Positions 17,338 to 20,474 of a stretch of DNA of 34,133 nucleotides are shown piece by piece (positions within the stretch are counted from its first letter, which is position 1; each line of letters opens with the position of its first letter). The translations under genes and the position numbers were made by a program. A model generated the notes under the pieces. That model did no database searches, was not told where the DNA came from, and worked only from the letters and a program-made list of their open reading frames with translations. This DNA comes from Candidatus Didemnitutus sp. (GTDB taxonomy: Bacteria; Verrucomicrobiota; Verrucomicrobiia; Opitutales; Opitutaceae), in contig JAUXXD010000138.1 of assembly GCA_030681265.1 (NCBI GenBank), forward strand, positions 1 through 34,133. The letters are read 5' to 3'.

Positions 17338-18423
17338 TTAGAGGAATTTCGCCGTCGCGGCGTCGGCCCCGAGGCGCTTCAGGAGCGCCTTGATTTCCTG
17401 CGCGCGCTCTTTGGTGCACACGAGTGTGGCGTCGGCCGTGTGCACGACCACGAGATCGCTGGCACCAACGACCGCCGTGAGATGGCCGCTCGTGGAAACG
17501 ACGATGTTGTTCGCGCCGCCCTCGACCAGCGCGAGTCCGCGCAACACGTTTTGGGCGGCGTCAGCGGGAAAGTGATTCGCCACCGCCGGCCATGCGCCAA
17601 CGTCGTCCCAATCAAACGTCGCGGGCACCACGACGACGTTGGTCGATTTTTCCATCAACGCGTAGTCCACGGAAATTTTGGGCAGCGTCGGATAAACGGC
17701 CGCGAGCGCCTGCGGCCAATCCGTCTGCGCCACCGCTGTTTCGAGCGTCAGCAATTCCGCATACAGCGCCGGAGCGTGCGCGCGAAACGCCGCTTCCACC
17801 GACGACACACTCCAGATGAACATGCCCGCGTTCCAAAAGTAGCGGCCCGAATCGAGGTAACGTTGCGCCGTGGCGGCATCGGGTTTTTCCACGAAACGTT
17901 TCACCGCCATCACCTCGCGTCCGCCGACGGTGCGCCACGCGCCGCCTTGCTCAATGTAGCCGAAACCTGTCGCGGGCTCAGTCGGTTTGATCCCGAGCGT
18001 CACGAGCACCTCGGCACTGGCGGCCGCGGAAAACGCCACCTCGAGCAACGCCTGAAATTCCGCCGTGTTGTGAATCACATGATCCGCCGGCAACATCGCG
18101 TAGGTCGCACGGGGATTGCGCGCCTTGACGAGCAACATCGCCAAGCCGGTTGCCGCCGCCGTGTCGCGCCCCATCGGCTCGGCGACGAGATTGGCGTCGG
18201 GCAATTGCGGGCACGCCGCGCGCACGCCGGCGAGTTGCTCCGTCGTGGTGATGACGAAAATATTTTCCCGCGGCACGAAGCCGAGCACGCGATCCACCGT
18301 CTGCGTAAGCATCGGCGTTTCCCCGACGATCGGCAGCAGGTGCTTCGGCACCGAGTGGCGGCTGGCCGGCCAGAAACGCTCCCCGCGCCCACCCGCCATG
18401 ATAACAACAAATCGATCTGACAT
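17338..18423 (-). CDS. manC: Mannose-1-phosphate guanylyltransferase
   Basis: Makes GDP-mannose from mannose-1-phosphate and GTP for polysaccharide synthesis. 361 residues: the nucleotidyltransferase only, without the C-terminal isomerase half of bifunctional ManC/AlgA. VIMAGGRGERFWPASR near the N-terminus is the nucleotide-binding signature, followed by PKHLLPI. LPADHVI and GFGYIEQG, then VKRFVEKPD, WNAGMFIW and FDWDDVGAW, are in the order expected. ATG 18423 is chosen because the signature begins at residue 7; longer in-frame starts extend into the upstream promoter region. It is the probable first gene of the leftward chain and is divergent from the rhodanese gene by 88 bases. Confidence 0.95.
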   Translation of the reverse strand: MSDRFVVIMAGGRGERFWPASRHSVPKHLLPIVGETPMLTQTVDRVLGFVPRENIFVITTTEQLAGVRAACPQLPDANLVAEPMGRDTAAATGLAMLLVKARNPRATYAMLPADHVIHNTAEFQALLEVAFSAAASAEVLVTLGIKPTEPATGFGYIEQGGAWRTVGGREVMAVKRFVEKPDAATAQRYLDSGRYFWNAGMFIWSVSSVEAAFRAHAPALYAELLTLETAVAQTDWPQALAAVYPTLPKISVDYALMEKSTNVVVVPATFDWDDVGAWPAVANHFPADAAQNVLRGLALVEGGANNIVVSTSGHLTAVVGASDLVVVHTADATLVCTKERAQEIKALLKRLGADAATAKFL

Positions 18424-18511
18424 GCGGTAAACGATTCCCGTGGCCCTCCGTCCGTCAACGGCGAACTGGATTTGCTTTTCCGCGCTCGGTCGGCCTAATC
18501 GCGGCCCTGTC

Positions 18512-18832
18512 ATGTCCGTTCCCCACGAAATCGACGTCACCACCGCTGCCGCCATGCGCCAGCAAGGTGCCCGCCTGCTTGATGTGCGCGAAGCGAGCGA
18601 ACTCGCCGTTTGCCAACTGCCCGGCTGCTTACATGTGCCGATGGGCGAGATTCCGGCGCGCTTGACCGAATTCCCAGCGGACACTCCCCTGCTCGTGCTC
18701 TGTCATCACGGCGGCCGCAGTGCGCGGGTCACCCAGTTCTTGCGGGCCAACGGTTTCGACCAAGCCATCAACGTCGCGGGCGGCATCGACGCGTGGGCGC
18801 GGCAAATCGACCCCGGGCTGGCCCGTTATTGA
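18512..18832 (+). CDS. Single-domain rhodanese-like sulfurtransferase
   Basis: A 106-residue cytoplasmic protein with one rhodanese domain: LLDVREASELAVCQLPGCLHVP, then the active-site loop with Cys64 in VLCHHGGRSARV, and NVAGGIDAW near the end. It can carry a persulfide sulfur on Cys64. Such small proteins supply sulfur or act in redox and detoxification reactions; the acceptor here is unknown. The ATG at 18512 starts the domain; a longer in-frame version from 18440 would overlap the divergent promoter. The small basic gene follows after 69 bases with its own promoter. Confidence 0.93.
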   Translation: MSVPHEIDVTTAAAMRQQGARLLDVREASELAVCQLPGCLHVPMGEIPARLTEFPADTPLLVLCHHGGRSARVTQFLRANGFDQAINVAGGIDAWARQIDPGLARY

Positions 18833-18847
18833 GGTTCACCGCGAGGC

Positions 18848-18876
18848 TTGACTCGCACGCAACCTTCCCGACTAAT
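18848..18876 (+). promoter_or_regulatory. Promoter of the small basic gene (and perhaps rimO)
   Basis: TTGACT (18848-18853, 5 of 6) and ACTAAT (18871-18876, 4 of 6) are separated by exactly 17 bases. Transcription would begin near 18883, about 20 nt before the ATG at 18902. Confidence 0.55.
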
Positions 18877-18901
18877 CACCGTTCACTTACCTACCAACAC
18901 C

Positions 18902-19003
18902 ATGGGCAAACAATACAACAAGGTTATCAAAAAGAAACGCCGCGTCGCTTATCTCAAGCGCAAGAATGCCGCCGTCAACACGGCTCGCAGCAAGAAGAAG
19001 TAA
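18902..19003 (+). CDS. 33-residue highly basic small protein upstream of rimO
   Basis: A very short gene: ATG 18902 to TAA 19001-19003. The peptide starts MGKQYNKVIKKKRR and ends TARSKKK. Fourteen of 33 residues are Lys or Arg and none is acidic, so it should bind RNA or DNA and resembles very small ribosomal or ribosome-associated proteins in composition. Support for it being real: a near-consensus promoter ends 25 bases before it, the leader ACCAACACC directly before ATG matches that of the TonB receptor, and a perfect hairpin follows 26 bases after the stop. It lies just ahead of rimO, which modifies a ribosomal protein. I recognise no named family. The ribosomal idea is inference. Confidence 0.75.
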   Translation: MGKQYNKVIKKKRRVAYLKRKNAAVNTARSKKK

Positions 19004-19029
19004 ACGCGGCGCTCACCGCCCTTCCTTTC

Positions 19030-19058
19030 GCGCCCGCTCTCGCGGGCGCATTTCGTTT
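19030..19058 (+). terminator. Perfect hairpin between the basic small gene and rimO
   Basis: GCGCCCGC (19030-19037) and GCGGGCGC (19042-19049) pair over the loop TCTC and are followed by ATTTCGTTT. The structure ends 9 bases before the rimO ATG. It can serve as a terminator or attenuator for the short gene, or as a translation-control element for rimO. Confidence 0.65.
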
Positions 19059-20474
19059 ATGTCCATCAAAGTCAGCCTCATCTCCCTCGGGTGCGCCAAG
19101 AACCTCGTCGATAGCGAGATCATGGTCGGTCACCTGCACCAAGCCGGCATGGTGGTCATTCCCGAAGCGGAAAAGGCCGACGTCGTGATCGTCAACACGT
19201 GCTCCTTCATCGATTCGTCCAAGGAAGAGTCGATCGGTCACATTCTCGAAGTTCACCAAAACCGCGGCATGCGCAAACGCCGCCGCGAGCAGATTCTCAT
19301 CGTCGCGGGCTGCATGTCGCAGCGTTTCTCGAAGGATTTGCCCAGCGCGATGCCCGAAGTGGATGCCTTCATCGGTCTCGACCAGGTCACCCAGGTCGCA
19401 CCGATCATCGAGGGACTTGTCGCCAAGGAACGTGGTAAAAAGGACGCGCCGGCGAACTTCGTTGCCGGCCGCTCGACCTACATCCCCGACTACGACACGC
19501 CACGTTTCCGTCTCACCCCGAAACATTTTGCCTACATCAAGATCGCCGAAGGCTGCAACCACCCGTGCACCTTCTGCATCATTCCGCAGATCCGCGGACG
19601 CCACCGCAGCCGCACGGTCGATAGCGTCGTCGCCGAGGCGCGCCAGCTGGTCAAAGAAGGCGTGAAGGAAATCAATCTGATTTCCCAGGACACGACTTTC
19701 TTCGGGATGGACACGTGGGAACAGCGCCCGAACGCGCGCACGCCCGTCGATTCTACGCGCGGCACCGCCCTCACTACGCTTCTCCGCCAGCTCAACGCCA
19801 TCGAGGGTGATTTCTGGATTCGTCTGCTCTACACCCACCCCGCGCATTGGAGCGACGAGTTGATCCAGACCATTGCCGAGTGCCCAAAAGTTGCGCGTTA
19901 CATCGACATTCCGCTCCAGCACATCAGCGACCACATGCTCGGACTGATGCAGCGCGAGACGAGCGGTGATTACATCCGCGACCTCATCAAACGCATCCGC
20001 GCCGGCATCCCGGGCATCGCGATCCGCACCACCTTCATCGTCGGCTTCCCCGGCGAAACCGAGGCCGACGTCGACGAACTCTGCGCTTTCATTCGCGAAG
20101 CCAAGTTCGAGCGCCTGGGCGTTTTCCGCTACTCGCAAGAGGAGGGCACGCGCGCGTCGAAGATGGAGGAGCAGCTTCCGCCGAAGGTGAAGGAAGCGCG
20201 CTGGCACAAGACGATGGCGCTGCAACAGGAAGTCGCACGCGAAGTTTCCAAGAGCTATGTCGGCCGCAAACTCCGCGTGCTCGTCGAAGAACCCGGCGTC
20301 GCCCGTGGCGAAGCCGACGCCCCCGACATCGACGGCCGCGTTTACGTGCCCAAGAGCCTGCCGGTCAGCGAATTTGTCGACGTGACGATCAACGCGTTCC
20401 ACGACTACGACCTGCTCGCGTTGCCGAAGGGCGAAGAGCCCGTCGTTTACAAGATCGCGAAGCAGGCGCAGTAA
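19059..20474 (+). CDS. rimO: Ribosomal protein S12 methylthiotransferase RimO
   Basis: Radical-SAM enzyme that adds a methylthio group to an aspartate of ribosomal protein S12. 471 residues. The N-terminal UPF0004 domain carries three cluster Cys: C12 in SLGCAKNLVDSE, C48 in NTCSF and C85 in AGCMSQ. The radical-SAM motif CNHPCTFC is at 166-173 (C166, C170, C173). The C-terminal TRAM domain (about 400-465) binds RNA or protein. SLGCAKNLVDSE distinguishes RimO from tRNA-modifying MiaB. ATG 19059 directly precedes the conserved start; the frame extends upstream only through the small basic gene's region. There is no Shine-Dalgarno and a hairpin stands before the start. Confidence 0.96.
   Translation: MSIKVSLISLGCAKNLVDSEIMVGHLHQAGMVVIPEAEKADVVIVNTCSFIDSSKEESIGHILEVHQNRGMRKRRREQILIVAGCMSQRFSKDLPSAMPEVDAFIGLDQVTQVAPIIEGLVAKERGKKDAPANFVAGRSTYIPDYDTPRFRLTPKHFAYIKIAEGCNHPCTFCIIPQIRGRHRSRTVDSVVAEARQLVKEGVKEINLISQDTTFFGMDTWEQRPNARTPVDSTRGTALTTLLRQLNAIEGDFWIRLLYTHPAHWSDELIQTIAECPKVARYIDIPLQHISDHMLGLMQRETSGDYIRDLIKRIRAGIPGIAIRTTFIVGFPGETEADVDELCAFIREAKFERLGVFRYSQEEGTRASKMEEQLPPKVKEARWHKTMALQQEVAREVSKSYVGRKLRVLVEEPGVARGEADAPDIDGRVYVPKSLPVSEFVDVTINAFHDYDLLALPKGEEPVVYKIAKQAQ

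Follow-up and report, generated by a model that had tools for sequence, protein, structure and literature searches.

The window, a stretch of 34,133 bp from Candidatus Didemnitutus sp., carries on its forward strand a gene for a basic protein of 33 amino acids (18902..19003, with the ATG start at 18902 and the stop codon at 19001-19003; product MGKQYNKVIKKKRRVAYLKRKNAAVNTARSKKK). It is located between a gene for a rhodanese-like protein (18512..18832, forward strand; PF00581) and rimO, encoding the ribosomal protein S12 methylthiotransferase (19059..20474, forward strand; TIGR01125, 476 bits versus a cut-off of 357). As the initial annotation had read it, the gene comprises 33 codons, and its product contains 14 lysine or arginine residues and no aspartate or glutamate. 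Based on conservation and on an AlphaFold2 model, the protein is composed of a core (residues 1-22) and a variable tail, with a helix predicted over residues 7-32. The ATG at 18902 was preferred over a longer frame starting with TTG, since this is where homology with the relatives of the peptide begins. No Shine-Dalgarno sequence was visible by eye ahead of the gene.

Upstream of the start codon lies a -35 element (TTGACT, 18848..18853, forward strand), followed after 17 bases by a possible -10 element (ACTAAT, 18871..18876, forward strand), which was read by eye, has 4 of 6 matches and is weak; read together by eye, the two display 9 of 12 promoter matches. There is good support for the -35 half, as TTGACT is kept in all 40 rimO-linked loci with sufficient upstream sequence, beginning 44-58 bases 5' of the start, compared with 0.3% of random placements in the same loci and with 3 of 38 loci other than the rimO-linked ones. 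The -10 half is weak, and a consensus promoter scan of positions 18400-19200, which demands an A at position 2 of the -10 element, returned no promoter. Of the near-consensus promoter with 17-base spacing that had been proposed for this gene, the -35 half is thus upheld and the -10 half stays weak. The perfect 8-base hairpin noted behind the gene was found again as a terminator-like structure at 19030..19049 (forward strand; GCGCCCGC-TCTC-GCGGGCGC), comprised of eight pairs, all G-C, and followed in the window by a short T-run. Folding of 19004-19062 gave -24.8 kcal/mol (z -2.9). Among the rimO-linked relatives, 35 of 41 have a T-tailed hairpin (7 bp or longer, the tail being T-rich) no more than 80 bases past the stop codon, as against 1.2% of random windows and 8 of 37 other loci. 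The conservation of both the -35 element and the hairpin among the rimO-linked relatives indicates that in the window's family the 33-aa gene probably forms its own transcription unit.

Over 21 core codons compared among nine close loci, 97 synonymous and 64 nonsynonymous changes were counted (pooled, non-independent pairs), while about 21% of the changes would be synonymous in a random expectation. Together with its conservation across the phylum, this synonymous excess sets the gene above chance, and the open reading frame almost certainly encodes a real, conserved protein. The single sequence, used as the query, matched 37 of 57 genomes at E<=10, with 32 of these matches falling below 1e-3 and the window's own genome being counted, and a 27-row profile matched 199 of 288 Verrucomicrobiota genomes at a lenient E<=1. 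With a 50-row profile at E<=0.01, the peptide was detected in 153 of the 190 Verrucomicrobiota genomes that were at least 97% complete, exactly once in 151 of these 153, and no match was obtained in the other 37. A narrow-pattern scan of genome contigs yielded 207 confirmed cases and at least 79 loci, those listed being Verrucomicrobiota by record title. The peptide, widely conserved and mostly single-copy, therefore has the properties of a lineage-specific conserved small protein; the lack of conservation at the peptide level, which had been named at the outset as the result that would count against it, was not encountered.

When 21 genomes lacking a convincing match were rechecked at E<=10, one (G066) gained a credible match (E 1.4e-5), another (G062) showed a borderline full-length match (E 0.12), and the remaining 19 still gave none. 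A genome of the window's genus (G008, 79% complete) lacks the peptide, its contig ending in rimO, 8 bases past the match, at the site where the peptide is expected. Four genomes of the window's family (G020, G026, G028 and G031), searched with the single sequence, had neither a match nor a close rimO. Near-complete genomes without the peptide are found in family f11 and in part of genus g50, where loss and strong divergence are both possible.

The alignment of 50 members shows a fixed core, consisting of the first ~22 residues and gapless from Met1 throughout the phylum, followed by tails that vary by lineage. M1, Q4, K10 and R13 are invariant in all 50 members (one M standing for a GTG start), and G2, K7, R14, Y17 and R20 each vary in at most two. 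The distant member in G066, whose peptide begins MGQQLRKRVKRAARIRR, has not kept R13. The window's peptide has a short, K-rich tail, and its close relatives are nearly tail-less; H1-like tails with KKAAAKK repeats occur among others in loci L061, L070, L107 and L109, and in a number of Opitutia records (e.g. L038 and L043) the tail is long and acidic. One member (L075, from a record titled Akkermansiaceae) carries an HHH_5 domain at its C-terminal end; the best NCBIfam resemblances of this protein are to L21, phasin PhaH and NuoE, with S2 scoring lower, so that the domain is a weak pointer. AlphaFold2 predicts the 33-aa peptide as a single helix (residues 7-32; mean pLDDT 87.4, pTM 0.45).

The linkage with rimO was scrutinized in the 190 near-complete genomes, 45 of which belong to the window's family, counting rimO as present at E<=1e-100 against TIGR01125. 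Both genes are found in 32 genomes of the family and are adjacent in all 32; ten have the peptide alone, none has rimO alone, and three have neither. Outside the family 96 genomes possess both genes, and adjacency, checked in 33 of them, was found in none. In total, 128 genomes have both genes, 25 the peptide only, 14 rimO only and 23 neither, which corresponds to an odds ratio for co-occurrence of 8.4, uncorrected for kinship. Of the 79 loci in named records, 41 are followed on the same strand by a rimO match, and at some of the others the sequence ends shortly after the peptide. One of the 41 (L048, titled Candidatus Didemnitutus mandela) has kept the peptide and TTGACT, while its rimO match is a 42%-identical fragment. 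Those of the near-complete f11 and g50 genomes without the peptide that were listed in both the peptide and the rimO searches (four of f11 and three of g50) lack rimO too. Synteny between the peptide and rimO is thus local, not extending beyond the family of the window in the genomes checked, and the peptide is independent of RimO. Of the conservation and rimO synteny originally put forward for verification, the former was confirmed (153 of 190 genomes) and the latter fails outside the family (0 of 33 genomes checked). The functional argument drawn from the S12-modifying neighbour is consequently weak, adjacency being limited to one family in which ten genomes have the peptide without rimO.

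Among 20 loci selected for taxonomic spread (one of which, L142, is on the same contig as the TypA-linked locus L055), the nearest neighbour on one side is related to translation or RNA in at least six: GluQRS (L134), YacP (L138), TypA (L142), LeuRS (L149), Tgt (L152) and an RlmI-like methyltransferase that scores below its curated cut-off (L135). In L137 a class I tRNA synthetase is the second gene downstream. The neighbours tested at other spread loci either had no match or were unrelated (a DASS transporter, a trypsin-like protease, a HAD hydrolase and an oxidoreductase). At the 39 named loci without an intact rimO, the commonest shared neighbour is a group that includes an OGG-type DNA glycosylase (15 loci, with L035 tested for family), followed by sugar-oxidoreductase-like genes (12 loci) and by smaller groups for Rho (5), YacP (4), TypA (3), RlmI-like (3) and YebC (3); the families were identified by testing some members, and the counts lack a matched control set. 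In L035 and 14 other loci the glycosylase gene is located one or two genes after the peptide in a common gene order, and the bigger groups seem to represent a single related lineage with a gene order in common. As evidence for function the neighbours are mixed, and offer a hint at most.

On balance we lean, by a little, towards a lineage-specific small protein that binds rRNA in the manner of a ribosomal protein. The basic N-terminal segment (G-x-Q-x-N-K, followed by a helix with K10, R13, R14, Y17 and R20) would lie against rRNA, and the lineage-specific tail would be tolerated outside this site. Consistent with such a role are the gapless core starting at Met1 and the single match in 151 of 153 genomes; the tiny size, the very basic composition and the single predicted helix, as in bS22 (in the part of PMC10618245 available); the translation- and RNA-related neighbours at at least six of the 20 spread loci, with RimO in the window's family; the HHH_5 domain of L075, which is like those in the L21 and S2 models; and the retention of the peptide in the ten family genomes where rimO was not found. 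Against it, no related ribosomal protein of solved structure was found and 37 of 190 genomes gave no match; the group with the OGG-type glycosylase, at 15 of 39 loci, outnumbers TypA, RlmI-like and YacP neighbours, the HHH domain of L075 scores for phasin and NuoE as it does for L21, and the H1-like tails are compatible with DNA binding. The narrower proposal of a new Verrucomicrobiota ribosomal protein with its own rRNA site, missing from the libraries consulted and possibly bound close to the position that uL30 leaves vacant, is plausible but falls somewhat short of probable. A search for uL30 (rpmD) at E<=0.001 gave no match in any of 12 genomes. The peptide, too, is missing from two of these (G038 and G039), and therefore is not a simple replacement of uL30.

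The main rivals are nucleoid binding and an assembly factor. As a nucleoid-associated or general nucleic-acid binder, the basic helix, extended in some members by KKAAAKK tails, would coat DNA or RNA without occupying a fixed ribosomal site. The composition of the peptide, the H1-like tails of several members, the HHH domain of L075 and the glycosylase-containing group found close to 15 of the 39 loci that lack an intact rimO all fit such a protein; however, the first 20 residues are fixed by position beyond the needs of charge (M1, Q4, K10 and R13 in 50 of 50 members), and the close relatives of the window's peptide have almost no tail, so that we consider this role unlikely, if far from negligible. 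Less likely again is a ribosome assembly or hibernation factor that binds at certain stages only, to which the neighbours TypA, RlmI-like and RimO and the 37 genomes without a match could point, but which agrees poorly with a very short peptide of one predicted helix and no folded domain. A role as a dedicated RimO partner in the methylthiolation of S12 would account for the adjacency in 32 of 32 family genomes and for the co-occurrence (uncorrected for kinship), and is very improbable in view of the ten peptide-only and zero rimO-only genomes in the family, the 25 and 14 such genomes among the 190, and the absence of adjacency in the 33 outside genomes checked. That the frame is open by chance, as its shortness and the missing Shine-Dalgarno sequence could suggest, is ruled out by the conservation of the peptide, and contradicted by the synonymous excess and the -35 element as well.

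The 33-aa peptide had no match in Pfam or NCBIfam. When 27 members were compared with Pfam, the sole match was to CBFB_NFYA (two members, best E 0.01), and with NCBIfam to a ribonuclease P model (one member, E 0.16); both are taken as chance. A search of sequences of solved structures, which has weak power at such a length, returned no ribosomal match and a single hit to a methyltransferase (E 4). Among open-access papers, none was found linking Verrucomicrobia with a novel ribosomal protein, small proteins with ribosome profiling, or Akkermansia muciniphila small proteins with essential genes determined by transposons. The one paper connecting Akkermansia with ribosome structure deals with mTOR and gut microbiota, and one on Verrucomicrobia (PMC7203096) does not mention a small basic protein in the portion available. 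As far as these searches of libraries and papers reach, the Verrucomicrobiota family is undescribed. The initial annotation had suggested an undescribed ribosome-associated or RNA-binding protein: the first part holds, there being no Pfam or NCBIfam match, and the role is our best reading only. If this reading is true, the Pfam and NCBIfam copies searched are missing a housekeeping protein that is present in much of a major phylum. The protein would serve as a marker for the phylum and as a target when Verrucomicrobiota ribosome structures are first determined, and would be a further case of incomplete ribosomal protein catalogues.

Several known small proteins were compared with the peptide. 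The tiny basic ribosomal protein bTHX (PF17070) was rejected, as neither the peptide nor any of the 27 members matched it, and no Thx was over the cut-off in the 12 genomes searched. A stand-in for bS21 was likewise rejected, bS21 being present in 11 of the 12. The small basic protein of TIGR04137 (NCBI type hypoth_equivalog) resembles the peptide in being small, basic and lineage-restricted, but differs in sequence: the peptide has no match to this model (threshold 50 bits), and the genome's true member is a separate gene located elsewhere (G000:C199:16108-16254). By our own inference TIGR04137 is probably the PVC signature protein CT421.2, for which unspecific binding of nucleic acids was reportedly observed in a 2014 study. 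In the portions of the sources available, CT421.2 is described as a PVC-wide signature protein of ~53 aa in Chlamydiaceae (PMC3444138) and is also taken up in a reviewer's comment (PMC2474590).

Like the 33-aa peptide, bS22 (mS38/COX24_C, PF08213; the analogue of eL41) is tiny, very basic and helical, according to the available part of PMC10618245. Identity with bS22/COX24_C was rejected, since the peptide has no PF08213 match at E 10 and there is none among the 27 members. The genome's own bS22-like peptide, also of 33 aa and above the Pfam cut-off, is encoded by a separate gene (G000:C159:33490-33576; L161:1091-1189), and its overlap with our peptide is one basic stretch of seven residues (E 0.065). 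A COX24_C peptide is above the cut-off in 7 of the 12 genomes searched. The bL37 and bL38 proteins, in the partial source at hand, are lineage-specific ribosomal proteins, as the peptide may be; neither was hit when the peptide was searched against PDB sequences, among which the inclusion of their chains is unconfirmed. The same part of PMC10618245 describes the Borrelia ribosome, in which bS22 and bL38 were both found although unannotated in its genome, and attributes beta strands to bL38, in contrast to the single helix predicted for the 33-aa peptide.
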